A stretch of 43,745 nucleotides of DNA from a virus, in the IMG/VR virus record IMGVR_UViG_3300001460_000036, positions 4,674-48,418 of that record; one strand, given 5' to 3'. Below are positions 730 to 18,715 of this stretch, piece after piece. Each line of letters starts with the position of its first letter. The stretch's first letter is position 1. Made by a program: the position numbers and the translations under genes. The notes under the pieces are model-generated. The model did not search any database and was not told the origin of the DNA. It saw nothing but the letters and a program-made list of their open reading frames with translations.

Positions 730-1263
730 TTACCAAATTGCTATACAACTATTACGAGATGCAGCATCTGTGCCTGTGGTGTATAATTTTAATATTTGAA
801 TTGGAAGGTAGTTTCCTACTGGAAAGTTTGCAAATGTTATATCACTCCCTGCTGTTGTTTGAACCTTAATGTCAACATAAGATTTTTCTACATCCATAGT
901 TGCGTCATTGCTTCCAACATATAATAAACATCCGTCAGAAGAATTTATTCTTGATGAACCATTAGGGCCACCTAAAAATATAGTATATGCTTCTGGAGAT
1001 GTAAATATATCAGCACTTACTTCTAATATAGTAGAACTATCTATTGCTACTACTGTTGCTGAAGTGTTATCTGTTGTGTTGTAAACTATATCTCCGATTT
1101 CAACTTCACTGAAGTCAGCTCCAACGTCAACTAATTTATCTGTTGTAGCGGCTGTAGTTGTTCCAGATATTACTGGTAGTCCAGGTGATGGGATAGGTAA
1201 TGTGTCACTGGCTATTATCTCTAATGATAATCCAGTATTTACGGTAATTTTTGGGTATGCCAT
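730..1263 (-). CDS. Putative virion protein, beta-rich
   Basis: 177 aa, Thr/Ser/Ala-rich, with alternating hydrophobic residues typical of phage structural beta proteins, and no signal peptide. Residues 41-96 resemble residues 127-186 of the virion protein encoded at 40356-41351: IGDIVYNTTDN against IGSIIVNNTTG, then VVAIDSSTILEVSADI against VTAVDNATTLSISSNI, both ending YTIF/YTIY. This shared module supports a virion role such as decoration or a fibre-like part. It lies immediately upstream of the one-TM protein gene (1-base gap). Confidence 0.5.
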   Translation of the reverse strand: MAYPKITVNTGLSLEIIASDTLPIPSPGLPVISGTTTAATTDKLVDVGADFSEVEIGDIVYNTTDNTSATVVAIDSSTILEVSADIFTSPEAYTIFLGGPNGSSRINSSDGCLLYVGSNDATMDVEKSYVDIKVQTTAGSDITFANFPVGNYLPIQILKLYTTGTDAASRNSCIAIW

Positions 1264-1302
1264 TTTTTTGTTTTGAGGGTTAAAAATCTCTTTTGTTACT
1301 AT

Positions 1303-1461
1303 TTATTTTTGGTATGGAAACATCCTATTTAATGTATCTCTACGCTTGTCGCAACCGCACCCACCTTTCGTGACTTTGTTTACAACTTGTTTTATTCCTG
1401 TTGCTCTTGTAAATTTTTCTATTGAATCACCAAAGCCTCTGGATGTTTTTGTTCTTTTCAT
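1303..1461 (-). CDS. Small conserved phage protein with CGC motif
   Basis: 52 aa. Translation from the ATG at 1461 begins MKRTKTSRGFGDSIEKF and ends with GGCGCDKRRDTLNRMFPY. A Cys-x-Cys next to a basic KRR and an LN..FPY ending is, from memory, a recurrent small protein in marine phages; its function is unknown. The start overlaps the stop of the upstream 79-aa gene by four bases (ATGA), which strongly supports that it is a real gene. The two cysteines might bind metal or pair with another chain; that is speculation. Confidence 0.6.
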   Translation of the reverse strand: MKRTKTSRGFGDSIEKFTRATGIKQVVNKVTKGGCGCDKRRDTLNRMFPYQK

Positions 1462-1697
1462 TTATTCAATTCTTTACTTTTTTTATAATAAGGATCTTCA
1501 TCTATGTTTCCACCCATATTTACTGGATCAGGCATGTTTACCTCTGGAATACTTGATCCTGGTTTACAAAGGCATTGTGAAACTGGACATTCATCCACTT
1601 CAAATATTAATTTAGATATAAGCCAATTCCATTTACATTGAAACTTACACCATACGTTCTGCATCCAGATTCCTAATTTTACTAATAATTTCCCCAT
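1458..1697 (-). CDS. Hypothetical protein, Trp/Cys-rich amphipathic N-terminus
   Basis: 79 aa of unknown function. The N-terminal half (1-32) is rich in Trp, Leu, Ile, Lys and Cys and looks like a membrane-associated amphipathic helix. A Cys cluster follows (CPVSQCLCKPG, about 37-47), then a Pro/Met/Asp-rich tail. It is four-base coupled to the downstream CGC-motif gene. A plus-strand reading frame covers the same bases but has no operon context, so the minus-strand gene is preferred. Confidence 0.5.
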   Translation of the reverse strand: MGKLLVKLGIWMQNVWCKFQCKWNWLISKLIFEVDECPVSQCLCKPGSSIPEVNMPDPVNMGGNIDEDPYYKKSKELNK

Positions 1698-1701
1698 AAT
1701 T

Positions 1702-1872
1702 CTATTTTTTTGGTGACGGCACTTTATCTATTCTTCGTGGTACATAAGGTACGTGTTGAACATGTGTGTTGCTATCGATAAACATTTCTGCCTTTTCTTT
1801 TTCAACTTTTACTTTAATTGGCTTTGGTTTGTCTAAAGCCTTTTTTTTTGTTTTAACAATTTTTTTTGCCAT
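1702..1872 (-). CDS. Small Lys/Pro-rich basic protein
   Basis: 56 aa from the ATG at 1870-1872. The N-terminal half is almost all Lys with Ala, Val and Pro (MAKKIVKTKKKALDKPKPIK); the C-terminal half contains VPYVPRRIDKVPSPKK. No domain was recognised. It is the first of two adjacent very basic mini-proteins, followed upstream by a third His/Ser/Lys-rich one. Such proteins may be nucleic-acid-binding virion or condensation factors; only composition supports this. Confidence 0.5.
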   Translation of the reverse strand: MAKKIVKTKKKALDKPKPIKVKVEKEKAEMFIDSNTHVQHVPYVPRRIDKVPSPKK

Positions 1873-1889
1873 TAGATTAAATTTAAATT

Positions 1890-2048
1890 TTATTTTTTAG
1901 CCTTACCTTTTACTTTTTTTAGTTTTGGGTTTTTCTTTTTAGCCTTAGGACTTGCTTTTCGTGTAGAAGACGCTAAGATTGCTGATGCAGCTTTTTTAGA
2001 TATCTTCTGTTTTTTTGCTATTTTAGATGCTACTGCTTTGAAACTCAT
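1890..2048 (-). CDS. Small Lys/Ala-rich basic protein
   Basis: 52 aa from the ATG at 2046-2048, starting MSFKAVASKIAKKQKISKKA, then AAILAS-like helix residues and a tail of KAKKKNPKLKKVKGKAKK. About two-fifths of the residues are basic. From memory, proteins of this pattern recur in marine phage late regions without a known role. The composition resembles histone H1 tails and SAP-like DNA binders, so DNA or RNA binding is a reasonable inference. Confidence 0.55.
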   Translation of the reverse strand: MSFKAVASKIAKKQKISKKAASAILASSTRKASPKAKKKNPKLKKVKGKAKK

Positions 2049-2051
2049 AGT

Positions 2052-2246
2052 TTATTTTCTAAAACTGTGTTGATGAACTTTTTGTGAGTGTCTGTAAGAC
2101 ATTGATTTGTCTGCACCATACGAGTGTCCATACATTTTTTTAGACATAGCTTTTGATTCATTACGTCTGCTTTTGTAAGATTGAGATTTTTTTCCATGTC
2201 TCGATCCTAAAGACTCATCGAGTCTGTCGTTATAACCTTGTTTCAT
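2052..2246 (-). CDS. Small His/Ser/Lys-rich phage protein
   Basis: 64 aa, starting MKQGYNDRLDESLGSRHGKK and rich in Ser, Lys, His and Tyr, with the segments SKKMYGHSYGADKSMSYRHS and QKVHQHSFRK. The MKQGYNDRLDESLG start is, from memory, a conserved opening in small phage proteins of unknown function. A TAnnTTTG box lies about 31 bases upstream of its start (2277-2284), so this gene probably begins its own transcript for the small-protein run. Confidence 0.6.
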   Translation of the reverse strand: MKQGYNDRLDESLGSRHGKKSQSYKSRRNESKAMSKKMYGHSYGADKSMSYRHSQKVHQHSFRK

Positions 2247-2276
2247 GATTTTATTTTTTTTATTATTAGTTATTTA

Positions 2277-2284
2277 CAAATATA
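2277..2284 (-). promoter_or_regulatory. Bacteroidota-type -7 promoter box TATATTTG
   Basis: The minus strand reads TATATTTG, an exact match to the TAnnTTTG -7 consensus of Bacteroidota. It lies in the only gap of this stretch, about 31 bases before the ATG at 2246. No clear TTG was found at -33. Confidence 0.5.
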
Positions 2285-2296
2285 AGAATATTAAAA

Positions 2297-2608
2297 TTAG
2301 TTCCATTTGCCATCAAAATTTCTTCTTTTCTGACCTCTTATAGAGTCCAACTTCTTTTTTTGTTTCTTTAATGCTTTTCTTTTTGCTAATGCACTTTCAA
2401 TTTTTTGTTGTATTTTAGTTTTTTTCTTTTTCTTTTCTTGGAAGTCAGTACCTCTTGTAGTACTTGTGTTTCTTGTCAAGCGTGATTTAGGATTATCCAT
2501 ATTATTGTCTTTCAAATATTTCTGATAACCCGCTTTTAGTTTTGCACACGCATCTTTAGTTCCAGCTGTGTGTATTTTTCCATCATATCTGTATGTACAA
2601 TTTCCCAT
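2297..2608 (-). CDS. Hypothetical Lys-rich protein
   Basis: 103 aa. The start MGNCTYRYDGKIHTAGTKDA forms a short module with two Cys residues (4 and 21). The remainder is a very basic helical region (about 57-95, many KKKK runs) ending RRNFDGKWN. No family was recognised. The N-terminus looks like a small folded domain and the C-terminus like a coiled, nucleic-acid-binding tail. It lies between the endolysin and the small-protein run. Confidence 0.5.
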   Translation of the reverse strand: MGNCTYRYDGKIHTAGTKDACAKLKAGYQKYLKDNNMDNPKSRLTRNTSTTRGTDFQEKKKKKTKIQQKIESALAKRKALKKQKKKLDSIRGQKRRNFDGKWN

Positions 2609-2637
2609 AATTATTTATTTTTATTTGCTATAATTTA

Positions 2638-3072
2638 TTATATATTACAATACTCAGTAGTTGCATCAAAACTTGGACATGCCTTCGCAGCAAAGTCTCG
2701 ATGAGAATGAATTTTTGCATCTGGATACATTTTACGTAACACATGCAATAATTCTAACAATGTTTCTTTTTGTTCTGATGTTCTTGTATCCTTTGCAGGA
2801 TATTTTCCTTTTGAATCTTTTTCAGATTCTACTCCTCCCACATAACAGATCGATATTGAACTGCAATTCAAACCTTTAGTATGAGCTCCACACTTGTCTA
2901 TCATTCGTCCAGTTTCAATAGAACCGTCTATTAAAACTAAAAAATGATATCCTATTCCTTTCCATCCTCTTTTTTTATGCCACCGATCTATAACCTCAGC
3001 ATTGATAGAGTCATCTCCCTCTCTTGTTGCGGAACAATGAATAATGATTTTACTTACATTCTCTTTTCTCAT
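2638..3072 (-). CDS. N-acetylmuramoyl-L-alanine amidase (T7-lysozyme-like endolysin)
   Basis: 144 aa, a single Amidase_2/PGRP-fold domain; T7 lysozyme is about 150 aa. It cleaves the bond between N-acetylmuramic acid and L-alanine in peptidoglycan and serves as the phage endolysin. Zinc ligands appear to be His12 (IIIHCSATR), His124 (HSHRDFAAK) and Cys132 (KACPSFD). Tyr42 (GYHFLV) and Lys130 fit the catalytic Tyr and Lys of T7 lysozyme. There is no signal peptide, so a holin or membrane factor should be needed; the one-TM protein at 444-728 is a candidate. It is transcribed from its own promoter divergent to the winged-helix gene. Confidence 0.93.
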   Translation of the reverse strand: MRKENVSKIIIHCSATREGDDSINAEVIDRWHKKRGWKGIGYHFLVLIDGSIETGRMIDKCGAHTKGLNCSSISICYVGGVESEKDSKGKYPAKDTRTSEQKETLLELLHVLRKMYPDAKIHSHRDFAAKACPSFDATTEYCNI

Positions 3073-3085
3073 CGCATTACTTTTG

Positions 3086-3101
3086 TATCTTTACAAAGAT
3101 A
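3086..3101. promoter_or_regulatory. Shared dyad covering divergent promoters
   Basis: TATCTTTACAAAGATA is a perfect inverted repeat (7-bp arms, AC centre). Read on the minus strand it contains TATCTTTG (3094-3101), the -7 box for the endolysin gene starting at 3072. Read on the plus strand it gives TATCTTTA (3086-3093), a near-match -7 box for the winged-helix gene starting at 3115. Either both promoters overlap, or the dyad is an operator for the adjacent winged-helix protein. Confidence 0.6.
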
Positions 3102-3114
3102 ACAAATTAATCTA

Positions 3115-3579
3115 ATGAAATTTAAAGGGGTGTCTAACAGAAGACAAACATCTCGTGTTAAACCGAGTCACGACTATTTAAAATATTGGCGTGTAGTAAG
3201 GTATTGGGTAAGAGCTAAATATAATTTAGGGACTCCTGAATTAGAAATGCTTTTATTTTTATACAGTGAGCAGATATTTAACAAAAGTCAATTCAAAAAT
3301 TTTGAAGAATTAATGTCCTGGGATATTAAGAGATTTAATTATCTTCTCAAAGAGGGATGGATACACGTGTGGAGAAAACGAAAAGGAAATGAATCAACTC
3401 TCTATGAATTAACTTACAAGTCTAAACGAATTGTAAATACTATTTATAAAAAATTAAATGGAGATATTATTGCAGAAACTTCTAAAAACAATCCACTGTT
3501 TAGAAATGATGCTTCATACATGGATAAAGTTTATAGAAATATGATTGTTGAAATGAATAAAGAAATTAAAGAACAATAA
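3115..3579 (+). CDS. Putative winged-helix (MarR-like) DNA-binding regulator
   Basis: 154 aa. It is the only plus-strand gene inside the leftward late block. The N-terminal basic stretch (1-20) is followed by helices and a wing-like segment: ELEMLLFLYS, then FEELMSWDIKRFNYLLKEGWI, then HVWRKRKGNESTLYELT, the usual order of a MarR/PadR-type winged helix with a recognition helix and beta-wing. The C-terminal third is helical and could dimerise. It is divergent from the endolysin gene across a perfect dyad and converges on groES with a 14-bp overlap. It may regulate the endolysin or late genes and itself; this is inference. Confidence 0.6.
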   Translation: MKFKGVSNRRQTSRVKPSHDYLKYWRVVRYWVRAKYNLGTPELEMLLFLYSEQIFNKSQFKNFEELMSWDIKRFNYLLKEGWIHVWRKRKGNESTLYELTYKSKRIVNTIYKKLNGDIIAETSKNNPLFRNDASYMDKVYRNMIVEMNKEIKEQ

Positions 3580-3823
3580 CTACATTGCGTTCTTCTATGA
3601 TAGTATAACTCTCATCTTCAAGAAACATAGTGTGCCCAGAAGACTTATCAAAATAAATTACATCACCTTGTTTAATCACTTCTACATTTGTTCCAGGATT
3701 AATTACTTCACCCTTATGATATCTAAATGATTCTATGTCAGCACTCGATAATAATAATCCAGAGTCTGATTTATATTCCTCGTTTATTTTTTTTATTACT
3801 ATGTATTTACCTATTGCCTGCAT
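3566..3823 (-). CDS. groES: Co-chaperonin GroES (Cpn10)
   Basis: 85 aa, slightly shorter than bacterial GroES (94-97 aa). It caps the GroEL ring. The start MQAIGKYIVIKKINEEYKSD matches the Cpn10 first strand followed by the mobile loop (about 18-34, SGLLLSSADIESF). The KGEVINPG segment and the QGDVIYFDK..G strand pair are typical, and the end YTIIEERNVVIVL matches the closing strand of Cpn10. It lies directly after groEL on the same transcript (1-bp gap). The loop is poorly conserved, so specificity for the phage GroEL is possible. Confidence 0.85.
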   Translation of the reverse strand: MQAIGKYIVIKKINEEYKSDSGLLLSSADIESFRYHKGEVINPGTNVEVIKQGDVIYFDKSSGHTMFLEDESYTIIEERNVVIVL

Positions 3824-3824
3824 A

Positions 3825-5435
3825 TTACTTTTCTTTAATTCTTGCGTGGGTTACTATTGCATTGGTGCTTAAAATTGTAGTAGCAACTGATACTGCATTT
3901 ATTAATGCGTTCTTAGTTACCTTTAAAGGATCGATGATTCCCATTTTATACATGTCACCCCATTCATTGCTTTTAACATCCAATCCCCAACTGTTGCCAT
4001 CCCAGTTGTTAGCCATATTCTTTTCTGTGTTTGCGTTTGGTATTCCTGCGTTCTCCCATATTTGAAGTAGAGGAGATTGTAAAGCGTCACTAAGTATTTT
4101 CTTTGCAATTGGTAATTCAAATTCATAATCATTATCAGAAGGTTTGAGCCACCAAGCAGCTCTCCACAAAGATAGTCCCCCTCCTGCAAGAATTCCTTCT
4201 TCCAGTGCGGAACGCACTGCACACACCGAGTCATCGACTCGGTCAAATTTTTCTTTTTGTTCTACGTCAGAGTTTCCACCAACATATATACAACCAATTG
4301 CACCAGCTAAACTCGCAATTCTTTGATTGATATAATCTATCTCGGCTTGTTGAGTACAACCCTTTTGGTATTCTTTTAGTTCTTGGATACGATTATTAAT
4401 CTGCTCCGTAAGTGCTGAGTGTTTAATAATTACAGATGAACTCTTTCCAATAATAATTTTATCTGCGTTACCAAGATCTGAAGGCTCGATCAAACTTAAA
4501 TCATCTCCAGTCTTTTCAGAATAATAAGTTGCACCAACTGATATAGCAATATCTTGCATTAACTCATGTTGCTTATAGCCAAAGTTTGGTGGCTCAATGT
4601 TACAAAACTTCAAACCGTTTCGCATAACATTCGCGGCCAATGTGTTTATTACATTCTGAGAACACTTTCCTATTATAAGAAGTTTCTGATTGTTTTGTAT
4701 AACTGGTTTAAGTATTTTTTCTATTTGTAGTATGTTACTAATTTCAGTATCACAAACTAAGACCTTAACATCTTCTAAGATACACTCGTCTTTTCTTTGA
4801 TTGTTTATAAATAAATTAGATGTATATCCTCGGTCAACTCTAATTCCATTAGTTACTTCTGCATATGTCTCTGAAGTCATAGACTTTTCTACTGTAACAA
4901 TTCCACTATGCCCAACCTTGTTATAAGCGTCAGCTATAATAGTACCTATTTCTTTATCACCGTTTGCAGAAATTGTAGCAACATCTAATAACCTGGCTTT
5001 TGTTATCTTCCTACTTTGGCGTTTTAACTCTTTAACAACCTCCTCTGTGAAGTTATTTATATGTTTAATAACCTCAGTCACATTATGACTTTCGTCTAAT
5101 CTTTTGTTTCCAGCTTTTACTAATGCTTCGGTTAATACAATAGCAGTAGTCGTTCCATCACCCGCGGTGTTAGCAGTTCTTAATGCTGCATCCTTCATCA
5201 TTTGGATTGCAAGATTCTCTACGGCATCATCTAAATAAATTGAATGTGCAACAGTAACTCCATCTTTTGTGATTGTAATTCCACCAAGGTGATCAGCAGA
5301 TTCTATTAATACGGTTTTACCGCGTGGGCCTAACGTACTCTTAACGGCTTTTGAAATTTTAGATATTCCTGAAATTAACTTTGTTCTTGCCTCTGAATCG
5401 AAATCAAGATTTTTTGGTATATAGCCTTTTGACAT
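3825..5435 (-). CDS. groEL: Chaperonin GroEL (Cpn60), phage-encoded
   Basis: 536 aa from the ATG at 5435 (MSKGYIPKNLDF). A TTG thirty bases upstream is in frame but would lie at the transcription start, so the ATG is preferred. All chaperonin regions are present: TLGPRGK (34-40) and DGTTT (93-97) at the nucleotide site, an apical domain from about 190 to 370 (GYTSNLFINN, KLLIIGK), and Asp402 in RVDDSV matching E. coli Asp398 for ATP hydrolysis, then LAGGG. The Gly-Gly-Met tail is absent (ends THARIKEK). It probably folds capsid or tail proteins in the host cytoplasm together with the adjacent GroES. Confidence 0.95.
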   Translation of the reverse strand: MSKGYIPKNLDFDSEARTKLISGISKISKAVKSTLGPRGKTVLIESADHLGGITITKDGVTVAHSIYLDDAVENLAIQMMKDAALRTANTAGDGTTTAIVLTEALVKAGNKRLDESHNVTEVIKHINNFTEEVVKELKRQSRKITKARLLDVATISANGDKEIGTIIADAYNKVGHSGIVTVEKSMTSETYAEVTNGIRVDRGYTSNLFINNQRKDECILEDVKVLVCDTEISNILQIEKILKPVIQNNQKLLIIGKCSQNVINTLAANVMRNGLKFCNIEPPNFGYKQHELMQDIAISVGATYYSEKTGDDLSLIEPSDLGNADKIIIGKSSSVIIKHSALTEQINNRIQELKEYQKGCTQQAEIDYINQRIASLAGAIGCIYVGGNSDVEQKEKFDRVDDSVCAVRSALEEGILAGGGLSLWRAAWWLKPSDNDYEFELPIAKKILSDALQSPLLQIWENAGIPNANTEKNMANNWDGNSWGLDVKSNEWGDMYKMGIIDPLKVTKNALINAVSVATTILSTNAIVTHARIKEK

Positions 5436-5462
5436 TATATTAGAATTAATTAAATTATAATG

Positions 5463-5470
5463 CAAAGGTA
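5463..5470 (-). promoter_or_regulatory. -7 promoter box TACCTTTG for groEL-groES
   Basis: The minus strand reads TACCTTTG, matching TAnnTTTG. It is 28 bases before the GroEL ATG at 5435, giving a leader of about 20-25 bases. This position decides the start: the upstream in-frame TTG (5463-5465) is part of the promoter box. Confidence 0.6.
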
Positions 5471-5490
5471 CAAAAATTAATTAAACGGTT

Positions 5491-5660
5491 GTGTACGTTA
5501 TGCTCGTTTTTTTCTATTCTATATATATATATATAACTTACAATATATATATATTTTATTACTCTATATATTTACTTTAAAATGAACATAATGAACATAA
5601 TAAATATAATATACTGAAAATCAGATAATTAGTTTGTGTTCGTTTTTTTTTAAATGAACA
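5491..5660. repeat. Iteron element, copy A (candidate origin or control region)
   Basis: The parts in order are: GTGTACGTTATGCTCG (5491-5506), an inverted form of the iteron; a core of almost pure A/T with runs of alternating TA (5517-5580); a tandem iteron TGAACATAATGAACATAA (5583-5600); ACTGAAAATCAGA (5613-5625); GTGTTCG (5636-5642); and AAATGAACATA (5652-5662). A further TTTGAACATAA lies at 5674-5684. The same parts recur at 13049-13208 with the same 92-base spacing from the inverted motif to the tandem iteron. The element lies just upstream of the groEL promoter and of all early genes. Confidence 0.65.
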
Positions 5661-5759
5661 TAGTTATGTTAGGTTTGAACATAAGTCAATAAAAAAAAGG
5701 AAGCTCGATTTACGAACCCCCTCTTTTCACATGATCAAAACAGAACAATCGGGAAAGTC

Positions 5760-5972
5760 TTAATACTTTAATATATTTTTACTACCATCCATACGCATCT
5801 TAGCTCTTTCGATACCATCAGCTATACAGTCGATTTTATATTGTTTTTTCATTTGGTTTCTATACATTGAAGCTTGTTCAATACCAGACACACCTTCAGC
5901 TCTCATGTTGATGAGCCTACCGTTTTTAATATACAAGCCGTCACCTGCATTGTGGGATTTATTATATGACAT
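5760..5972 (-). CDS. Small hypothetical protein
   Basis: 70 aa, starting MSYNKSHNAGDGLYIKNGRL and ending AKMRMDGSKNILKY. It is basic and mostly helical in its second half (SGIEQASMYRNQMKKQYKID). No family was recognised. It is the only convincing gene in the early/late junction; a near-consensus -7 box (TACCTTTA on the minus strand, about 5986-5993) lies shortly upstream. It would be read toward the iteron element and groEL. Confidence 0.45.
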   Translation of the reverse strand: MSYNKSHNAGDGLYIKNGRLINMRAEGVSGIEQASMYRNQMKKQYKIDCIADGIERAKMRMDGSKNILKY

Positions 5973-6493
5973 ATCTCTAATTTTTTGTAAAGGTAAAAAA
6001 AAAATTTCACATATGTTGGGGTTGAGGGTTATAGTAGGTTATACGTTGACCAGCCCTAAAAATAAAATCAAAACTTTTTTGTCTTCGAGAAACAATTTCT
6101 AATTTTTTCTTCAGACTTTTTCAGAATTCATGAGGGGGTAACACCTTACTCCCTTGCTCCACATTGGTGGTGCTTGTTGCATCCCTTATCCGTTAGTCTT
6201 ACGGTACTATATCTGCTTACATATTCCCCTATCACCATAGTCCTTCCCCCAATATAATTAAAGAGAGACAGAGAGACATCTCTTAACCCCAGTCCGAGCC
6301 AGTCAGAGAGTAAACGTTTCATCCTCACTAAAGCTGCGAAGAGAGAGTTGTGTAACTTACTGTCTACCAGGACATTAGCAAAGAGAGAACTGGTGGTTCG
6401 AGTTGTGCATCAAGTCATCCTCTACGAAGGGATTTGGTCGGTTCAAGAATTAATAGTATATTGCACATATATTAATAATTAAATACACACAAA
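5973..6493. other. Non-coding, hairpin-rich junction before the early genes
   Basis: About 520 bases without a convincing gene. Its base composition is visibly richer in G and C than the surroundings between 6130 and 6450. It contains several potential hairpins: GGGGGTAA/TTACTCCC with loop CACC (6134-6153), CCGT/ACGG near 6190-6204, and a GTCT..AGAC structure followed by a T-run near 6081-6124. Possible roles are a structured non-coding RNA, an early leader or a packaging site; none can be decided by eye. A 60-codon minus frame inside (6146-6328) shows no gene-like features. Confidence 0.5.
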
Positions 6494-6844
6494 ATGAACA
6501 ACAAATTACACGCTCAGATGAGCACCGAAACAACAAACGTTAAACACGCAACAACTCCATCAGAGTATGCATTTCACGAGTCTAACGCAATCATTACATT
6601 CACTTACTACGCTAACAATTTTCACTACGATTTCATCGAAAGAGTATGGGGTGTTGACACAATGTTATCCAATCACTTACAGTCTAAATGGGATGTATTA
6701 GTTGGCTATTTGACAGTAGCGAGAAAAGAGACAGACAACAGATTCATAAAGAATTTAACTGGAACAGAGTTGTTCTACAAGTTTTATATGATGTTGGATT
6801 CCTCTAACAAAGAACTATTAAATGAATTTATACTTAAACAATAA
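6494..6844 (+). CDS. Hypothetical early protein
   Basis: 116 aa of unknown function, soluble and mainly helical, with an aromatic stretch ITFTYYANNFHYDF at about 35-48 and a helical C-terminus. It is the first gene of the rightward early block. The leader reads AATTAAATACACACAAA directly before the ATG, a motif shared with the next early genes. No signal peptide or TM. Confidence 0.6.
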   Translation: MNNKLHAQMSTETTNVKHATTPSEYAFHESNAIITFTYYANNFHYDFIERVWGVDTMLSNHLQSKWDVLVGYLTVARKETDNRFIKNLTGTELFYKFYMMLDSSNKELLNEFILKQ

Positions 6845-6866
6845 TTAATCTTAAACACACACAATC

Positions 6867-7484
6867 ATGAGTACAATTAAAACAAACAAATCAACAGTAA
6901 AACACACAACATTTCGTCAACTTGTAGAGTTGATATTATCAAGACAAACTGAAGAAGGATGGGGACACCAAACCTTTACACGTCAAGACATCCATAAAGC
7001 AATATGGGTTGCTCAAGGCAATGACATTGAGACTTACGTGGTTCGTCAAGGTAACTACGCAACTGCAATTAAGTCATGGACAGATGATGAGAAACTACTT
7101 GAGCGTATTGATAGAGGACTATATCGTCTAAGCGACAACGGTTTTAAGTTCGGTATGGGAACTTATAAAGAAGGGGTTAAACTCATCCGAACTATTAATG
7201 AAGACAGATTGAAAGCAAGACGTAAAGCACGTGAGGAGCGAAACAATCTACCACACTTTAAACATGCAAAGAAATTCCAACACTTAGTTGGGTTATCTAT
7301 AGTGAAGGTTAGATACTGTACACCATCAGAAAGAGATAGTTTAGGGTGGTATAATTCACCAATCATATTACATATGTCAGATGGTTCTTTAATGTTTCCA
7401 CAAACAGATGATGAAGGGAATGATGGTGGTGCATTGGCGTTATTTAACGACAGAGGTAATTTAGATTGTGCTTACACAATATAA
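6867..7484 (+). CDS. Hypothetical early protein with two apparent modules
   Basis: 205 aa. The N-terminal part (about 15-100) has helix-turn patterns (FRQLVELILSRQTEEGW, FTRQDIHKAIW, LLERIDRGLYRLSDNG) like a winged-helix fold. A basic linker (RLKARRKAREERNN) follows. The C-terminal part (about 140-195) contains LGWYNSPIILHMSDGSLM then PQTDDEGNDGGALAL; this GW..P....DG...PQsDdEGNDGGAL pattern recurs, from memory, in phage and plasmid proteins of unknown role. A DNA-binding N-terminus is inferred. Confidence 0.6.
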   Translation: MSTIKTNKSTVKHTTFRQLVELILSRQTEEGWGHQTFTRQDIHKAIWVAQGNDIETYVVRQGNYATAIKSWTDDEKLLERIDRGLYRLSDNGFKFGMGTYKEGVKLIRTINEDRLKARRKAREERNNLPHFKHAKKFQHLVGLSIVKVRYCTPSERDSLGWYNSPIILHMSDGSLMFPQTDDEGNDGGALALFNDRGNLDCAYTI

Positions 7485-7490
7485 TATAAC

Positions 7491-7535
7491 GGTATGCATG
7501 GTGCATTGGGGAGTTCGATTCTCCCCATACCACGA
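7491..7535 (+). other. tRNA-like minihelix (acceptor stem plus T-arm only)
   Basis: GGTATG (7491-7496) can pair with CATACC (7526-7531). Between them lies a perfect T-arm: GGGGAG (7508-7513), the loop TTCGATT (7514-7520) matching the tRNA T-loop consensus TTCRANY, and CTCCCC (7521-7526). The end reads ACGA, one base from a discriminator plus CCA. The D-arm and anticodon arm are missing; only 11 bases separate acceptor and T-arm. It sits between two early genes. It may be a tRNA remnant, a tRNA mimic or a 3'-end structure. Confidence 0.6.
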
Positions 7536-7565
7536 CAATAATGTCAAACAATTAAATACACAATT

Positions 7566-7970
7566 ATGAACAAATCAGTACAGTCCTTTGATGACTTAAA
7601 CTTCAACAAACACAAAGCGTGTAAAGGCGTTCAAGCGTTTCACGAGTTCCCTAACGGCAACACAATCTCAGTAGTAGGTGGTGAAGGCTTATATGGTGAT
7701 GGCGTAGTCTCATTTGAGGTTATGACTAACATAGAGTCAATTAACGGTGAGTCTGGAGTTTTATCATGGCAATCACGTGATGAGGTAACTAACATCATTA
7801 ATTCACTTCAATATACTATGGGGATTACACCCAAAGCTGCGAAGGATCTTTTAGAACAAGCAATTGACAATCTATTAATATTAGAAGAATTAGGTGAGTC
7901 ATATGCACACTTTCAAAGTGCTAAATACACGCACACACAAATCAAAAAAGCAATTAAAATTTTAAGATAA
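7566..7970 (+). CDS. Hypothetical early protein
   Basis: 134 aa of unknown function. The N-terminal half is beta-rich (GNTISVVGGEGLYGDGVVSF); the C-terminal half is helical (AAKDLLEQAIDNLLILEELG). The leader CAATTAAATACACAATT before the ATG matches the motif seen before the two preceding genes. No TM or known motif. Confidence 0.6.
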   Translation: MNKSVQSFDDLNFNKHKACKGVQAFHEFPNGNTISVVGGEGLYGDGVVSFEVMTNIESINGESGVLSWQSRDEVTNIINSLQYTMGITPKAAKDLLEQAIDNLLILEELGESYAHFQSAKYTHTQIKKAIKILR

Positions 7971-7976
7971 ATAACT

Positions 7977-8408
7977 ATGGAAAATACATTTAAACACAGA
8001 CAAATACAGTTGACAAAAGAGTCAACACTAATGGAAGCATTTAAGTTTAATCTTGACTGTTATGACGATGAAGTCATAGACAAAGAAGATTTTATCAATG
8101 CTATGGAACAGTGGATATCACACCTTACACTCCCTAATCTTAAACGAGAGATAGACGTTGTAATAGATAAAGTAAAAGAAGAGATAGTAGAAGTATACAC
8201 TGACGATGATGTTCTGCCTAAAAACTGGGTAGAAATGCAAAAACACTTTGATACAAATGAGTTCTTTGCAGACTACTTAACAGACTTGAGTTTTGACTGT
8301 GCAACAGTCATTACAAATAAAGTTGATGAGTGGTTGAGAGAACAACGAAATCAAGTAGAGAGTATTAACAATTGGAGCAGTCTTTACTACAAACGAAAAG
8401 ATAATTAA
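7977..8408 (+). CDS. Hypothetical acidic early protein
   Basis: 143 aa, acidic and helical, with many Asp/Glu clusters (CYDDEVIDKEDF, EEIVEVYTDDDVLPKNW). No motif was recognised. It follows the previous gene by six bases and is followed at two bases by the next, so it is part of one early transcript. The strong acidity would be compatible with a DNA-mimic or protein-binding role, but nothing specific supports that. Confidence 0.6.
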   Translation: MENTFKHRQIQLTKESTLMEAFKFNLDCYDDEVIDKEDFINAMEQWISHLTLPNLKREIDVVIDKVKEEIVEVYTDDDVLPKNWVEMQKHFDTNEFFADYLTDLSFDCATVITNKVDEWLREQRNQVESINNWSSLYYKRKDN

Positions 8409-8410
8409 TT

Positions 8411-8605
8411 ATGGCAAATTTAAGTTATTGCAGATTTGAAAATACTGCACGAGATTTAAGTGATTGCGTTGAAGCAATTGACAATCAAGAAATAAGTAAA
8501 GAGTCAAGCGATTCAGAATTAGAAGGACTACGTTGCCTTCTGATTTTGGCTCGTGAGGTTCTGGATAGAGAGCAAGAGATAGAATCAATAATCGAAAACA
8601 CATAG
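8411..8605 (+). CDS. Small conserved phage protein (MANLSYCRFENT type)
   Basis: 64 aa. The opening MANLSYCRFENTARDLSDC is, from memory, a recurrent start in small phage proteins of unknown function. The rest is helical and acidic (SSDSELEGLRCLLILAREV). Three Cys residues (7, 19, 42) are present. It is tightly packed after the previous gene. Confidence 0.65.
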   Translation: MANLSYCRFENTARDLSDCVEAIDNQEISKESSDSELEGLRCLLILAREVLDREQEIESIIENT

Positions 8606-8607
8606 AT

Positions 8608-8721
8608 ATGAAAGAGTTCTTAAAATTTATAAAAGAAGAGCCACTTGAAGCTATAGGTAGCATATTGTTTTTGGCAATACTGTCAATCTTATTCTACGTA
8701 TGTATGTGGATATTTTACTAA
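8608..8721 (+). CDS. Tiny single-TM membrane protein
   Basis: 37 aa from the ATG at 8608, two bases after the previous stop. It has a charged N-terminus (MKEFLKFIKEEPLEAIG) followed by one hydrophobic segment (about 18-37, SILFLAILSILFYVCMWIFY) that ends the protein. An inner-membrane protein with N-in topology is likely. The role is unknown; small early membrane proteins often act on host targets. Confidence 0.55.
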   Translation: MKEFLKFIKEEPLEAIGSILFLAILSILFYVCMWIFY

Positions 8722-8740
8722 TCAATTAAATTAAACAAAG

Positions 8741-9553
8741 ATGAATATATTAGAATTATTTAGTGGTAGCCGTAGCATCGGCAAAGTTGGAACGGATAGA
8801 GGACACACTGTGTTCTCTTCCGATTTCACTGATTTCCCCAACACAGATTATGTTGTGGACATATTAGAATTTGATGTAAACAAAGTACCTTTCGTTCCAG
8901 ACGTTATATGGGCGAGTCCACCATGTGAATCATTTAGTGTAGCGTCTATTGGGCGTCACTGGGTGAAAGGTGAAGTCTTTACACCAAAGACAGAAAATGC
9001 GAAAAAGGGTTTAAAGATCCTACACAAGACAATGGAAATTATAGAGTATTATTTGACTCAAAATCCAAACTTAATTTGGTACGTTGAAAACCCACGTGGA
9101 AAAATGAGAAAGTCACCTCACTGGGCAAAAATTCAACATTCGTTAAACACCGTAACTTATTGTCAGTATGGAGATGACAGAATGAAACCAACTGATATTT
9201 GGAACAACAACGACTCCTGGATTTCCAGAAAAATGTGTAAAAATGGAATGCCTTGTCATACATCTGCTCCGAGAGGTTCTTCGACTGGCACACAAGGTCG
9301 TTCATCGTATTACGACAGAAGTAAAATACCAACAGAACTGTGTGAGGAAGTTATTATTTCAACAGAAAACAAACTTAAAGAACTCAAGCCTTATACAGTA
9401 GAATATTGGTTTTTAGCTTATGTAGGTGCAGACGATATGGGCTATGATTATGAGCATATAGATGTGACTGCAAAGAACGATAATGAAGCCATAGAAATAG
9501 CTAAACGACTGTCACGTTCTTACTCTAAAAACTTTAAAATAGTTAGGAATTAA
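8741..9553 (+). CDS. Atypical DNA cytosine-C5 methyltransferase-like protein
   Basis: 270 aa. Motif I is ELFSGSRSIG (5-14), binding S-adenosylmethionine. Motif IV is ASPPCESFS (58-66) with probable catalytic Cys62, in a PPC form instead of the usual PCQ. Motif VI is VENPRGKMR (115-123). A classical target-recognition region and motifs IX-X are not evident. The C-terminal 55 residues (from about YTVEYWFLAYVGADD to KNFKIVRN) look like a separate small alpha/beta add-on. It probably methylates or modifies cytosine in phage DNA to evade restriction. No restriction enzyme accompanies it. Confidence 0.75.
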   Translation: MNILELFSGSRSIGKVGTDRGHTVFSSDFTDFPNTDYVVDILEFDVNKVPFVPDVIWASPPCESFSVASIGRHWVKGEVFTPKTENAKKGLKILHKTMEIIEYYLTQNPNLIWYVENPRGKMRKSPHWAKIQHSLNTVTYCQYGDDRMKPTDIWNNNDSWISRKMCKNGMPCHTSAPRGSSTGTQGRSSYYDRSKIPTELCEEVIISTENKLKELKPYTVEYWFLAYVGADDMGYDYEHIDVTAKNDNEAIEIAKRLSRSYSKNFKIVRN

Positions 9554-9566
9554 CAACTTAATTAAC

Positions 9567-9574
9567 TAAATTTG
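9567..9574 (+). promoter_or_regulatory. Candidate -7 promoter box TAAATTTG
   Basis: TAAATTTG matches TAnnTTTG and lies in the gap after the atypical methyltransferase, 30 bases before the ATG at 9604. The AT-rich sequence makes a chance match possible. Confidence 0.35.
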
Positions 9575-9603
9575 TACAATAATTAAATAAAATTAAATTC
9601 ATT

Positions 9604-9747
9604 ATGACCTTAGAACAATACCTCAACGACTGTAAAAAACAAATCGAAAATTCTCACAAATCCAGGATAAGACCTTCACAGAATCCTTACACAGAAAACA
9701 AATTAGAAGACACAAAGGGTGAGCCACCCTTGTTTATTGGCTCATAA
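9604..9747 (+). CDS. Small hypothetical protein
   Basis: 47 aa from the ATG at 9604: MTLEQYLNDCKKQIENSHKS at the start and EPPLFIGS at the end. No family recognised. A -7-like box lies upstream and a GNRA hairpin follows, so it may form its own small unit. The short length leaves some doubt. Confidence 0.4.
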   Translation: MTLEQYLNDCKKQIENSHKSRIRPSQNPYTENKLEDTKGEPPLFIGS

Positions 9748-9772
9748 ATAGTTGTGTGTTTATTTATCCATG

Positions 9773-9798
9773 CCTCACTACGAAAGTAGTGGGGTTTT
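9773..9798 (+). terminator. GAAA-tetraloop hairpin followed by T4
   Basis: CCTCACTAC (9773-9781) pairs with GTAGTGGGG (9786-9794) around a GAAA loop, nine pairs with one T-G, then TTTT. It may be a terminator or an RNA stability element; the T-run is short and a gene in the same direction follows. Confidence 0.5.
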
Positions 9799-9825
9799 GG
9801 TGGTACAAAACAAAATTTAAATCAG

Positions 9826-10122
9826 ATGCAAGAAATTAAAATTATTACTCAAAAAGAATTTAGCAAACCATATGGTATTGCTTTCTTAAAAAATGGGAAG
9901 CCAATCCCCTACACACGATGGTACAAGACTGAAGCTGGGAGATCCAGAGCAATTTCTAAAAACAATTGGACTATTGTCTATACCAAAAATGTTCGTAAAG
10001 AACGTCAATATAGAAGTAATCAAGGTAGAAGTCCAGAACGAATGACTAAAATATATAAAAGTATGTTTTGGTGTTTGTTAGGATTAACAATTACTGTATT
10101 AACATTAATTTTATTTAAATAA
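9826..10122 (+). CDS. Hypothetical protein with C-terminal TM
   Basis: 98 aa. The first 75 residues are basic and soluble (KNGKPIPYTRWYKTEAGRSR); the last 20 form one TM segment (FWCLLGLTITVLTLILF), as in a tail-anchored protein. The cytoplasmic part would carry the function. No family recognised. It is one base before the Nmad1-type gene. Confidence 0.55.
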   Translation: MQEIKIITQKEFSKPYGIAFLKNGKPIPYTRWYKTEAGRSRAISKNNWTIVYTKNVRKERQYRSNQGRSPERMTKIYKSMFWCLLGLTITVLTLILFK

Positions 10123-10123
10123 T

Positions 10124-10516
10124 ATGTGGAACACAAATTCAACTCATCCTAACACTGGATATTCAGAACGAATAGAGAGTATGAAAGATGGAGTGTCTTT
10201 AGATACATGTGATATGATTTCAAATGTAGGTCAAGAAGTAATTGACTTGCTTCTTAAAAAGAACAAAGATTACGGAGATACTGCAAACAATCCTCCACAG
10301 ATTTTTAGTAAATTATCTGCAAAAGAGGGAATCTTAGCACGTATTGATGACAAGTTAAGTCGAATAAAAAAAATAGGATTTGACAACCCAAATGACTCAG
10401 AAGACACTTTAAAAGACTTAATAGGATATTTAATGTTGCTAAAAGTTCAAATTGAATTAGAGAAACAAGCAGTATTACAAAAAATATTAGATAATAAACC
10501 TAAACCAAAAAAATGA
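10124..10516 (+). CDS. DUF1599 / nucleotide-modification-associated domain 1 protein
   Basis: 130 aa. From about residue 33 to 115 it follows the DUF1599 (Nmad1) pattern: VIDLLLKKNKDYGDTANNP, then EGILARIDDKLSRIKKIG, then DSEDTLKDLIGYLMLLKV. This family is all-helical, related in layout to MazG-like pyrophosphatases, and often lies with phage nucleotide-modification genes. It may act on nucleotides or DNA bases; the exact reaction is unknown. Its stop overlaps the next start by four bases (ATGA). The neighbouring methyltransferase makes a modification role credible. Confidence 0.7.
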   Translation: MWNTNSTHPNTGYSERIESMKDGVSLDTCDMISNVGQEVIDLLLKKNKDYGDTANNPPQIFSKLSAKEGILARIDDKLSRIKKIGFDNPNDSEDTLKDLIGYLMLLKVQIELEKQAVLQKILDNKPKPKK

Positions 10517-10818
10517 AAAAAGACATCTTTGACAAATATGCATCTGCTGTAGCTGATAAATTTCATGTTAACTTAGATAGTATATTCGAAAAATCAAAAC
10601 GTAGACATTTAGTTGACGCAAGACAAATGTTATATCTGTTATGTAAAGAACGTCCAATATCCGTTGCTTACATTCAACACTACTTAGCCGAACATGGTTA
10701 TGAGGTAGCTCATACAACCATTATGTATAACTATAAAAAAGCTAAAGAACAAGTAAAATCAGATCCTGAATTTAAACAAATTTATAAAATCCTTAGTGCC
10801 GATGAATCCCTTATCTAA
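10513..10818 (+). CDS. DnaA domain-IV-like DNA-binding protein
   Basis: 101 aa. It resembles only the C-terminal DNA-binding domain of the initiator DnaA: VADKFHVNLDSIFEKSKRRH, then VDARQMLYLLCKE (33-45), a helix-turn-helix with EVAHTTIMYNYKKA (64-77) corresponding to the DnaA 'DHTTV' recognition helix. There is no AAA+ ATPase part. It may bind phage origin repeats or act as a regulator. A second protein of this type is encoded at 18663-19316, so the phage carries a pair. Confidence 0.7.
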   Translation: MKKDIFDKYASAVADKFHVNLDSIFEKSKRRHLVDARQMLYLLCKERPISVAYIQHYLAEHGYEVAHTTIMYNYKKAKEQVKSDPEFKQIYKILSADESLI

Positions 10819-11236
10819 ATATTATACAATAGAGGATATTTGGAATGAGGCATATATAGATTCACGTTCATCTATTATACCATTACCTAAAGGTGTTGCT
10901 GTTATTGGAGCTGGTGTAAAGATGCAAAAATTTGGAGAGCATATTGAAATCTTCAACATGAACAAAGGTGGCGATTATTTTAAACCCCTTGACAATGATG
11001 AACTTGGATTGTTTTTAATTTATGGATGGAAAGTAGGATGTATTAAAATATCGCTTTCTAATTGTAAACATAAATTAGATATGATTGAAAAGAAAATACA
11101 GAACGAAGTCAACACAAGAAAAAACGACAAGCATATTCAAAATCTAAAAACTCGCAGAGAAAATATACTTTTAAAGTATACAGACCTTAGAAATAAATTA
11201 AATCAAGTTAAATTAAAATCAAAACACAATGAGTAA
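10802..11236 (+). CDS. Hypothetical protein with C-terminal coiled coil
   Basis: 144 aa from the ATG at 10802; a GTG six bases upstream in frame is less likely. The N-terminal half is a small alpha/beta region (YYTIEDIWNEAYIDSRSSII, KGVAVIGAGVKM). The C-terminal half is a basic coiled coil (IEKKIQNEVNTRKNDKHIQN onward). It overlaps the end of the preceding gene and the first 8 bases of the annealase gene, so it is translationally coupled to both. Function unknown. Confidence 0.55.
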   Translation: MNPLSKYYTIEDIWNEAYIDSRSSIIPLPKGVAVIGAGVKMQKFGEHIEIFNMNKGGDYFKPLDNDELGLFLIYGWKVGCIKISLSNCKHKLDMIEKKIQNEVNTRKNDKHIQNLKTRRENILLKYTDLRNKLNQVKLKSKHNE

Positions 11237-11852
11237 AACAAATGAAAATCCTTTTGTGAAATTGGCTAAAGTCAACATTAAAGGTAAGGTAGAGAAAAAA
11301 GGAAATTTCGACTACCTTTCGTGGGCAACTGCATGGACGTTGCTACAAATAGAGTATCCAGGATCAACAAGAACTATTTACAAAAGACATTTTGAAAATG
11401 GTGATGTAGTAAATTACTTTACGGATGGGAGAACGTGTTGGGTGAGTGTAGGAATTACGGTCAATGGCGTAGAGCATATTGATGAACTTCCAATAACTGA
11501 CAATAGAAACAATTCTATTCATCTAAACAAAATTAATTCTTTTGATATCAATACGGCCATTCAAAGAGCAACGGCTAAAGCGATTGCAATGCATGGATTA
11601 GGCTTACAACTTTGGGTTGGGCAAGATATTATTGCAACTACATCTCCACCAACTAAAACTGTCGGTGAATGGCCAATAAAGTTAGAATTTGGAACAGACA
11701 ACTGGCAGAAAGTTTTGAGTTTTATGGCAAAAAACAAAGATAAAGGTCTTAAAAAAATAATAGATATACTGACAGAAGAAAAGTATATTATAGAAAAGAC
11801 AGAGCATGAAGATTTAGAAGTATATTTTAAAACATTATCAAATGGCAAATAA
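11229..11852 (+). CDS. DUF1071 single-strand annealing protein (Sak3-type)
   Basis: 207 aa. The opening (residues 5-40) with FVKLAKVNIKGKVEKKGNF and DYLSWATAW is diagnostic of DUF1071, a Sak3-type single-strand annealing family of phage recombinases. The central region (WVSVGITVNGVEHIDELPIT then INTAIQRATAKAIAMHGLGL) continues the fold. The protein anneals complementary single strands during recombination-dependent replication. It overlaps the exonuclease gene by 11 bases, giving the common exonuclease-annealase pair, with an SSB-like protein just after. Confidence 0.85.
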   Translation: MSKTNENPFVKLAKVNIKGKVEKKGNFDYLSWATAWTLLQIEYPGSTRTIYKRHFENGDVVNYFTDGRTCWVSVGITVNGVEHIDELPITDNRNNSIHLNKINSFDINTAIQRATAKAIAMHGLGLQLWVGQDIIATTSPPTKTVGEWPIKLEFGTDNWQKVLSFMAKNKDKGLKKIIDILTEEKYIIEKTEHEDLEVYFKTLSNGK

Positions 11853-12588
11853 GTTAGATACACCACAAGTAGCGATAGAGAAACTTCAGGATGATACTTT
11901 TTACTACGGTGATTATGGTAGAAAGTATTTATCTAACTCTGATATTATCAAACTTCTAAAAAATCCTACGCAATTTAGAATTCCACAAGTTAGAACTAAA
12001 CCTATGTTAGTAGGATCGTATTTTCATACGGCTATGTTAGAGCGTGATAAATTAGACAACTTTACAGTTGTTGATGTAGCTTCACGTTCAACAAAAGCAT
12101 ACAAGGAAGTCTGTCCACCTAATGATATTTTACTTCTAAAAAAAGAACAAGAAGAAGTTCTGTCGTGGGTAGATAAAATGACAAGTAATATTGAAATACA
12201 TGACTTAATATATGCAGACAATAATCAGTTTGAAGTTCCGATGGTAGATAACATAATGGGCAACTGGTGGAAAGGTAAAGCTGATATTATTCATGATGAT
12301 TATATTATTGACGTGAAAACGAGCTCTGACATTGATAAATTTATGTACAGTGCAAAGACTTATAATTATGACAGTCAAGCCTATATATACCAACGAATGT
12401 TTAACAAACCTATGTTGTTCATTGTAATATGTAAAACCAGTCAAAGACTGGGCATTTTTGAATGCTCTGCCGATTTTGTGCAAGGTGGTCAAAACAAAGT
12501 ACAAGCTGCAACAGAAGTTTACACTAAATTTTTTAGCGATGAAAAAACTGCAAACATTAATAATTACATACATAAACAAACTCTTTAA
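11842..12588 (+). CDS. PD-(D/E)XK exonuclease (DUF3799/RecE-like)
   Basis: 248 aa. The start includes YLSNSDIIKLLKNPTQF and GSYFHTAMLE (His62), typical of RecE/DUF3799 nucleases. The active site appears as Glu131 (FEVPM), Asp148 (KGKADIIHDD), Asp157 and Lys159 (IIDVKTSSD), with Gln179 (DSQAYIY) completing the fold. It should resect duplex DNA ends to load the annealase encoded directly upstream. The two genes overlap by 11 bases. Confidence 0.85.
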   Translation: MANKLDTPQVAIEKLQDDTFYYGDYGRKYLSNSDIIKLLKNPTQFRIPQVRTKPMLVGSYFHTAMLERDKLDNFTVVDVASRSTKAYKEVCPPNDILLLKKEQEEVLSWVDKMTSNIEIHDLIYADNNQFEVPMVDNIMGNWWKGKADIIHDDYIIDVKTSSDIDKFMYSAKTYNYDSQAYIYQRMFNKPMLFIVICKTSQRLGIFECSADFVQGGQNKVQAATEVYTKFFSDEKTANINNYIHKQTL

Positions 12589-12727: not shown

Positions 12728-13003
12728 ATGAGTGATTCAACTTATGAAGTAAAACCAGGAACGTTTTCTTTGTTTAAAAATGAAAACAGAACCGACAACA
12801 ACAACCAACCTCATTACAATGGTAATGGAAAAGACTTGAATGGTAATGAATTTCAAGTTTCTGCATGGTTAACAGAAAGTAAAAATGGGAAAAAGTATTT
12901 TTCTTGTAAATTGCAAGAGCCGTACAAAAAGGAGACAGCTCCAAACCAAGTCTCAACTGCTACAGCTTCTGTAGTCGAAGGTGATCCAGATTTACCATTT
13001 TAA
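12728..13003 (+). CDS. SSB-like / DUF736-like single-strand DNA-binding protein
   Basis: 91 aa. It has a beta-rich pattern of GTFSLFKNE, then QPHYNGNGKDLNGNEFQVSA, then WLTESKNGKKYFSCKL, matching the DUF736-type OB-like layout. The C-terminus ends DPDLPF, like the acidic tip of bacterial SSB (DDDIPF) that recruits host repair and replication proteins. With the annealase and exonuclease upstream it forms a recombination cassette. It is the last gene before a terminator. Confidence 0.65.
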   Translation: MSDSTYEVKPGTFSLFKNENRTDNNNQPHYNGNGKDLNGNEFQVSAWLTESKNGKKYFSCKLQEPYKKETAPNQVSTATASVVEGDPDLPF

Positions 13004-13023: not shown

Positions 13024-13049
13024 GGGGGTAATTAACCCCCATTCTTTTG
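13024..13049 (+). terminator. Intrinsic terminator after SSB-like gene
   Basis: GGGGGT (13024-13029) pairs with ACCCCC (13035-13040) around an AATTA loop and is followed by ATTCTTTTG. It lies 20 bases after the SSB-like stop and ends the recombination transcript. Confidence 0.7.
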
Positions 13050-13208
13050 TGTTCATTATGCTCATTTTTAGTCTGTATTTTAAATCTCAATAAAATTAAC
13101 TCTTTAATATTATTTTATTTATATATTATTATACTTTATTTGAACATAATGAACATAAAATAAAAGAAACTACTGTAAATCAGAGTTTTATAAAAAATCA
13201 AATGAACA
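13049..13208. repeat. Iteron element, copy B (candidate origin or control region)
   Basis: It has the same parts and order as 5491-5660: GTGTTCATTATGCTCA (13049-13064), an A/T core, a tandem iteron TGAACATAATGAACATAA (13141-13158), ACTGTAAATCAGA (13172-13184) and AAATGAACA (13200-13208). The inverted motif to iteron distance is 92 bases in both copies. One more iteron (ATGAACATAA, 13213-13222) forms the start codon and first codons of the primase gene, so a protein bound here would also cover that start. Confidence 0.65.
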
Positions 13209-13212
13209 CAAA

Positions 13213-18375: not shown

Positions 18376-18715
18376 TAGTTGGGACATGGAAGATGATTTC
18401 AAAGATTTCTTTCTATCCATTGATCCATTTCTCGCACATAAAATAGCAAAATTTTTAGATGAGAATTTAAAACGTGTTCCATCTAATAAATACATTACAC
18501 ACATCAGAGGGGGGGTGGTAAAACACGAAGATGAGCAAGTCTATTTTGCAATAGAAATTACAAAACTTCCTGGATTTATAATGACACTGTCATTTATATC
18601 TTTCATCGATGTTGACGAATACTTAGACCTCATTAACTTAAATTGTTACATCAAATCAAATCATGAATCCAATAGAAAAATTAATAACCCTAACAGCTTC
18701 AGTATTCAATATTGA
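18344..18715 (+). CDS. Hypothetical early protein
   Basis: 123 aa, acidic N-terminus (SSWDMEDDFKDFFLSIDPFL), then LAHKIAKFLDENL and a beta-rich middle (KYITHIRGGVVKHEDEQVYF). No family recognised. It overlaps the ends of both neighbours (32 bases with VRR-NUC, 53 with the DnaA-like gene), so translation may be coupled. Confidence 0.5.
   Translation: MDYEQKYTEDSSWDMEDDFKDFFLSIDPFLAHKIAKFLDENLKRVPSNKYITHIRGGVVKHEDEQVYFAIEITKLPGFIMTLSFISFIDVDEYLDLINLNCYIKSNHESNRKINNPNSFSIQY

Follow-up and report, generated by a model that had tools for sequence, protein, structure and literature searches.

The window analyzed here, a stretch of 43,745 nucleotides, corresponds to positions 4,674-48,418 of the 48,418-base IMG/VR record IMGVR_UViG_3300001460_000036, and all coordinates given below are those of the window. 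A megablast search for the nearest phage DNA gave no match. The window carries two elements that are built from the same parts and are referred to as copy A and copy B (Table 1). In relatives as well as here (synteny), copy A is located immediately upstream of the gene for a phage GroEL, and the promoter-like TACCTTTG upstream of this gene matches TAnnTTTG, the -7 promoter element of Bacteroidota. A small ORF adjoining groEL (3566-3823) has a counterpart in phage MW202828 which is annotated as chaperonin 10 kd subunit.

Copy B is flanked by a small gene (12728-13003), which is SSB-like solely with regard to its position, and by the gene for a primase-helicase. The replication module also encodes a Sak annealing protein, a PDDEXK nuclease, and two DnaA-domain-IV proteins, D4a and D4b, which are devoid of an AAA+ domain and are kept in most relatives; D4b has a C-terminal extension. 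The gene order matches that in MW202828, a complete circular relative of 60,850 bases (repressor, groES, groEL, dnaA-like, exonuclease, VirE/primase, helicase-like, second DnaA-like). The module is followed in the window by a minus-strand ORF coding for 2946 aa (20863-29703), and a giant ORF (741-12320) is found at the equivalent place in MW202828.

Each copy consists, in this order, of two tandem 9-mers, an A/T core of about 75 nt, two inverted tandem 9-mers (TTATGTTCA when the right arm is read on the minus strand), a site matching the IHF consensus, and further 9-mers. The sequence-only reading, which predates this analysis, had described an inverted motif (GTGTACGTTATGCTCG at 5491, GTGTTCATTATGCTCA at 13049) at a distance of 92 bases from a tandem iteron (TGAACATAATGAACATAA at 5583 and 13141), followed by a box with an offset that differs by one base between the copies (ACTGAAAATCAGA at 5613, 30 nt past the iteron start; ACTGTAAATCAGA at 13172, 31 nt). 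The 92-base distance proved to be exact in both copies, and the one-base difference was confirmed. The inverted motif is not a motif of its own, however. It consists of the same 9-mer, present as a degenerate pair in inverted orientation (TTGTGTACG and TTATGCTCG in copy A, TTGTGTTCA and TTATGCTCA in copy B), and the A/T core is thus flanked by two tandem 9-mers on either side. The last box, given earlier as ACTGwAAATCAGA, overlaps the IHF consensus WATCARNNNNTTR.

All six exact matches to the 9-mer TTATGTTCA in the 48.4-kb record are inside copies A and B. Among all 75-mers of the record, those with the lowest GC content are the cores of the two copies, with 7 G/C among 75 bases each. Downstream, each copy has 2-4 extra 9-mers, which in copy B overlap the primase start codon. 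Features of iteron-type origins are present, namely tandem 9-mers resembling initiator sites, both in the arms and downstream, and an adjacent A/T-rich region.

Table 1. Position of copies A and B, their parts, and the associated genes in the window
Feature	Position	Strand	Basis
Phage GroEL (Cpn60)	3825-5435	-	Pfam PF00118 6.2e-61; synteny
Promoter-like TACCTTTG between copy A and groEL	5463-5470	-	match to TAnnTTTG
Copy A left arm, tandem 9-mers TTGTGTACG TTATGCTCG, degenerate, inverted relative to right arm	5489-5506	+	sequence; 9-mer scan; equivalent arms in relatives
Copy A A/T core, about 91% A/T, candidate unwinding element	5507-5582		lowest-GC 75-mer scan of record
Copy A right arm, two tandem 9-mers TTATGTTCA (read on -)	5583-5600	-	sequence; 9-mer scan
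Copy A IHF-consensus site AATCAGATAATTA	5619-5631	+	consensus match; position across relatives
Copy A additional 9-mers at 5634 (+), 5655 (-), 5664 (+), 5676 (-)	5634-5684		9-mer scan
D4a, DnaA domain IV only; considered as binder, not favoured	10513-10818	+	Pfam PF08299 9.3e-09
Copy B left arm TTGTGTTCA TTATGCTCA	13047-13064	+	sequence; 9-mer scan
Copy B A/T core, about 89% A/T	13065-13140		lowest-GC 75-mer scan
Copy B right arm, two tandem 9-mers TTATGTTCA	13141-13158	-	sequence; 9-mer scan
Copy B IHF-consensus site AATCAGAGTTTTA	13178-13190	+	consensus match; position across relatives
Copy B start-proximal 9-mers at 13203 and 13214, 11 nt apart; the second overlaps the primase ATG (13213)	13203-13222	-	9-mer scan
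Primase-helicase, 802 aa (BT4734-like_N, PriCT-1, P-loop ATPase with SF3-like motifs, C-terminal winged helix); proposed initiator	13213-15621	+	
C-terminal winged-helix domain, residues 696-790, proposed box-binding domain	15298-15582	+	AlphaFold model pLDDT 87.7; covariation
Wing residues 779-786 (R-D-G-P-G-K-W-L here), tracking box positions 3, 6, 7	15547-15570	+	covariation
D4b, second DnaA-domain-IV protein; considered as binder, not favoured	18663-19316	+	Pfam PF08299 8e-14

Conservation of the layout and variation of the boxes

The observation is real and reaches far beyond the window. Several hundred IMG/VR contigs belong to this large, uncultured phage family, the relatives of which come from Bacteroidota. 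Some relatives of the primase (L240-L245, L249, L251) are encoded on GTDB contigs that were binned to Pseudomonadales, Aliivibrio, Gammaproteobacteria, and an archaeon; because most other matches are from Bacteroidota, these are likely mis-binned phage contigs. For the comparison, 80 relatives of the primase-helicase were retrieved at first and then about 100 more distinct ones, and about 145 phage contigs were compared.

The sequence-only reading had proposed to search related phages for the 18-base iteron and the 92-base spacing. With the layout defined as a left box, a distance of 70-110 nt, and a right tandem pair, it is present upstream of the primase-helicase gene in 97 of 144 relatives, while first-order Markov shuffles gave a mean of 0.2 and control stretches 5 among 667. 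The arm distance is 91-93 in 59 of these 97, these being the commonest values. An exact scan of IMG/VR for the 18-mer returned 15 stretches and is of little use, because the motif changes between phages. At the position of copy A, upstream of groEL, at least two of the genome's own boxes are found in 20 of 22 relatives and at least five in 15 of 22 (about 1 expected). One of the two relatives without own boxes has a cluster about 430 nt from groEL (L159), and the other has different boxes there (L029). The circular genome of MW202828 has exactly two box clusters, with 7 and 6 boxes (next best 2), and these are at the positions of copies A and B.

The box sequence varies between genomes (TGTTC, TGTTA, TGACA, TGTCG, and others) yet is common to copies A and B within each genome. 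Arms that are inverted and change together might be taken for a hairpin or RNA element, with pairing in RNA or single-stranded DNA. The arms are, however, internally tandem, imperfectly complementary, and ~75 nt apart, and further boxes occur in both orientations. In addition, Rfam returned no match above the gathering threshold near copy A, where only a sub-threshold match to the L20 leader was obtained. We thus regard such an element as barely plausible.

In many relatives, two or three boxes, spaced by 11 nt, are found at the primase start. Some clades are devoid of copy B or have only its start-proximal boxes, which indicates that two copies are not always needed. According to the sequence-only reading, relatives with the same genes that lack both elements would speak against a functional role; those that lost the copy B layout and for which the groEL side was examined retain copy A, at times with quite different boxes. 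Copy A may be the principal site, given that it is retained in the absence of copy B. Two further arrangements were seen at the position of copy B. The region is replaced in L053 (about 9600-9720) by a sequence that is similar to the 3' half of a tRNA (GTTCGATTC ... GGTGCCA), and in L050 and its relatives (L038-L054) the left arm has turned into a short palindrome (GTGACGAATGTCAC or a related variant), the right arm still consisting of tandem boxes.

The IHF consensus WATCARNNNNTTR was found downstream of the right arm in 16 of 22 relatives for copy A (1.3 expected) and in 52 of 144 for copy B (4.8 expected). Relative to the identified right arm, the IHF-like site starts almost only at +9/10, +20-22, or +31 nt, which corresponds to one, two, or three helical turns and thus to a fixed helical phase. 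By itself, the consensus shows no enrichment in the window (10 matches vs. 10.45 expected), so that the weight of this site comes from its position, which is fixed across relatives.

The primase-helicase as candidate reader of the boxes

The helicase part of the primase-helicase has the motifs GGSGKG (Walker A), LTFDD, ITTN, and ERRKW, as read in the sequence, and Pfam assigned PriCT-1 and BT4734-like_N. A D5-like match was returned by Foldseek (E 0.02, prob 0.94) on a low-confidence model, the full-length model being poor over much of the protein. When modeled alone by AlphaFold, the C-terminal domain is a winged helix (mean pLDDT 87.7), and the residues that track the boxes are in the wing hairpin.

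Single alignment columns were tested after a comparison of domain-level distance with motif distance had given no clear signal. For box position 7, all boxes of an element were counted, as the right arm alone is a noisy label. Among the first 50 genomes, residue 784 (K/R) agrees with position 7 (T/C) in 48. When the rule from these genomes was tried on new ones with at least 4 boxes, K was associated with T in 22/22 cases and R with C in 47/57 (Fisher 3e-12, relatedness uncorrected). Over 145 genomes, residue 784 has the highest score for position 7 among all 802 columns (0.60; next 0.47, column 793), and in six neighbouring proteins, the top columns score 0.22-0.34. Independent contrasts on a tree that was built without the C-terminal domain gave 5.6 concordant, 0 discordant, and 5.4 uninformative pairs (p about 0.03). 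Among the top 15 tree-controlled columns for this position, 10 are within residues 696-802, about 13% of the protein. Exceptions are ten genomes with R784 and T at position 7, several of which share F786, and L072/L079, which have K784 and mostly C at position 7; independent changes are few.

Two other box positions are tracked by residues of the wing. Residue 781 is the top column for position 3 (0.55, next 0.28), with N781 being associated with GTG in 15/15 cases. The nucleotide A at position 6 goes with K779 (6/6) or with a residue other than G at 783 (9/10) and is nearly absent otherwise, a link that rests on few independent changes and for which several columns outside the domain score as high. 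In a clade formed by L222, L224, L226, and L232, the nearly invariant W785 of the wing is replaced by Y or F, and the boxes are wholly different (TTTGGAATA, GTCTGCCAT; in L222, TTTGGAATA occurs together with W785Y), the IHF-like site being retained.

The sequence-only reading had named the DnaA-domain-IV proteins as binders, in which case the element would be an oriC-like array of DnaA boxes. The length of 9 nt and the TTRT start of the box resemble a DnaA box, D4a and D4b are both assigned to PF08299, and column 66 of D4a, which aligns to the recognition helix of DnaA, is the best D4a column for position 7 (0.34). For the same genomes, however, primase residue 784 reaches 0.59 and thus explains far more. 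Genomes L071, L079, and L081 share an identical D4a recognition helix (VSHSTIIHGYKKA) yet have different boxes, the D4b helix NKNHATV is kept across different boxes, and the consensus of TTATGTTCA and its variants is not the DnaA box TTATNCACA. We therefore rejected D4a and D4b as readers and consider a DnaA-box array improbable. The box reader is most likely the C-terminal winged helix of the primase-helicase, as judged from covariation and the predicted fold.

On balance, we lean toward the view that these phages form an undescribed twin-origin family in which the recognition sequence drifts fast and the initiator wing residues 779, 781, 783, and 784 drift with it. The pairing of wing residues and boxes would then be a partly readable protein-DNA code, by which the origin sequence of a phage could be predicted from its initiator. 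If this is true, predictions at the level of single residues follow: K784R should move the preference from TTATGTTCA to TTATGTCCA arms (C at position 7). The diversification may be driven by the avoidance of cross-talk (incompatibility, superinfection) among co-infecting relatives.

Twin replication origins as the proposed function

We consider it likely, with a probability of roughly three in four, that copies A and B represent a pair of replication origins, or one origin plus a further site bound by the initiator, and that they are read, melted, and primed by the phage primase-helicase. This protein would bind the inverted tandem 9-mers via the wing of its C-terminal winged helix and assemble on either side of the A/T core. 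An IHF-like protein would bend the DNA beside the right arm, the core would melt, and unwinding and priming would be carried out by the SF3-type helicase and the primase domain, both of them parts of the primase-helicase. The start-proximal boxes of copy B suggest autoregulation, as they would let the primase-helicase repress its own gene. The sequence-only reading had postulated a protein-DNA complex in which a core that melts easily is placed between inverted binding sites, with a replication origin or an early/late switch as candidate roles. Such a complex, most likely at a replication origin, is supported by the conserved layout, the matched motif change, the phased IHF-like site, and the extreme A/T content of the cores. 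The assignment of DnaA-domain-IV proteins as binders is not supported. A check of cumulative GC skew, also proposed earlier, placed the minimum about 1 kb from copy A, a result that is confounded by gene orientation.

The elements might instead be transcriptional operators only, by which the primase-helicase or another regulator controls the groEL-side and primase operons (an early/late switch) and at which no replication starts. This would fit the promoter-like TACCTTTG, which abuts copy A, as well as the copy B boxes that overlap the primase start codon and the 11-nt phasing seen there in relatives. An operator does not need ~75-nt A/T cores, the most extreme ones of the record, between inverted pairs at a fixed distance, however, and the residues which track the boxes belong to the primase-helicase rather than to a repressor. 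We thus consider it unlikely that the elements are operators only. A site for recombination, packaging, or segregation (att, pac, or par-like) is very improbable, even though att and par loci also have an IHF-like site and paired arm sites, since the covarying protein is the primase-helicase, the element resides in the replication module and beside groEL rather than next to the terminase, and there are two copies per genome.

The origins of uncultured phages are rarely known. The present analysis relied on sequence alone and proposes where the origins are, which protein is their initiator, and a specificity code that can be tested. Twin origins of this kind would provide a model for the evolution of origin specificity and a route to mini-replicons for Bacteroidota, a group with few genetic tools.

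Comparison with known systems

The sequence-only reading knew of no described element with this layout, and a paper describing it was not found in the literature searched. Its kind has precedent, though, in origins that combine iterons with an A/T-rich region and IHF, as well as in the two initiator-bound sites of phage SPP1. The mode of action is best read as similar to that of P4 alpha or of SPP1 oriL/oriR.

In phage P4, two sites with iterons, ori and crr, are required, which are separate from each other. The alpha protein of P4 combines a primase, an SF3-type helicase, and a C-terminal winged helix, which binds the origin repeats before unwinding and priming (PMC4234260). The primase-helicase resembles alpha in its predicted make-up, with putative counterparts of these three parts in one phage protein. 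It is nonetheless not a member of the P4 alpha family by the features tested. Alpha has a TOPRIM primase of the bacterial type (PMC4234260), whereas the N-terminus here is BT4734-like, an AEP family (PMC5862659), and a TOPRIM (DnaG-type) domain was not found, Pfam assigning BT4734-like_N instead. The match of the winged helix to the P4 origin-binding domain 1KA8 was not significant (Foldseek rank 42, E 1.2, prob 0.18), and a sequence search of the PDB gave no match. Unlike in P4, the sites are arranged as inverted pairs on the two sides of an A/T core and are accompanied by a phased IHF-like site, and the sequence of the sites diversifies.

Iteron plasmids are autoregulated via promoter-proximal sites. 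The origins of pSC101, R6K, and P1 have tandem initiator sites, an A/T-rich unwinding region, an IHF site, and a winged-helix initiator (PMC4980987). The elements described here differ from these by the fused primase-helicase as initiator, by arms that are inverted on either side of the core, and by usually having two copies per genome.

An AEP primase, an SF3 helicase, and a C-terminal winged helix are also joined in one chain in ORF904 of pRN1 (PMC4234260), as is predicted for the primase-helicase analyzed here, and for other AEP primases, C-terminal winged helices have been suggested to serve origin recognition (PMC5862659). The origin of pRN1 has a large stem-loop and no iterons (PMC4234260), while iterons are present here. 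In SPP1, one initiator binds two sites that are 12 kb apart, and oriL is inside the initiator's own gene (PMC3485210). The likeness is that the same boxes occur at two distant sites of each genome, with binding by one initiator being proposed here; SPP1 has a separate initiator (G38P), loader (G39P), and helicase (G40P), whereas the proposed initiator is fused to the helicase. As in SPP1 (PMC3485210), the two copies could possibly allow bidirectional or early/late use.
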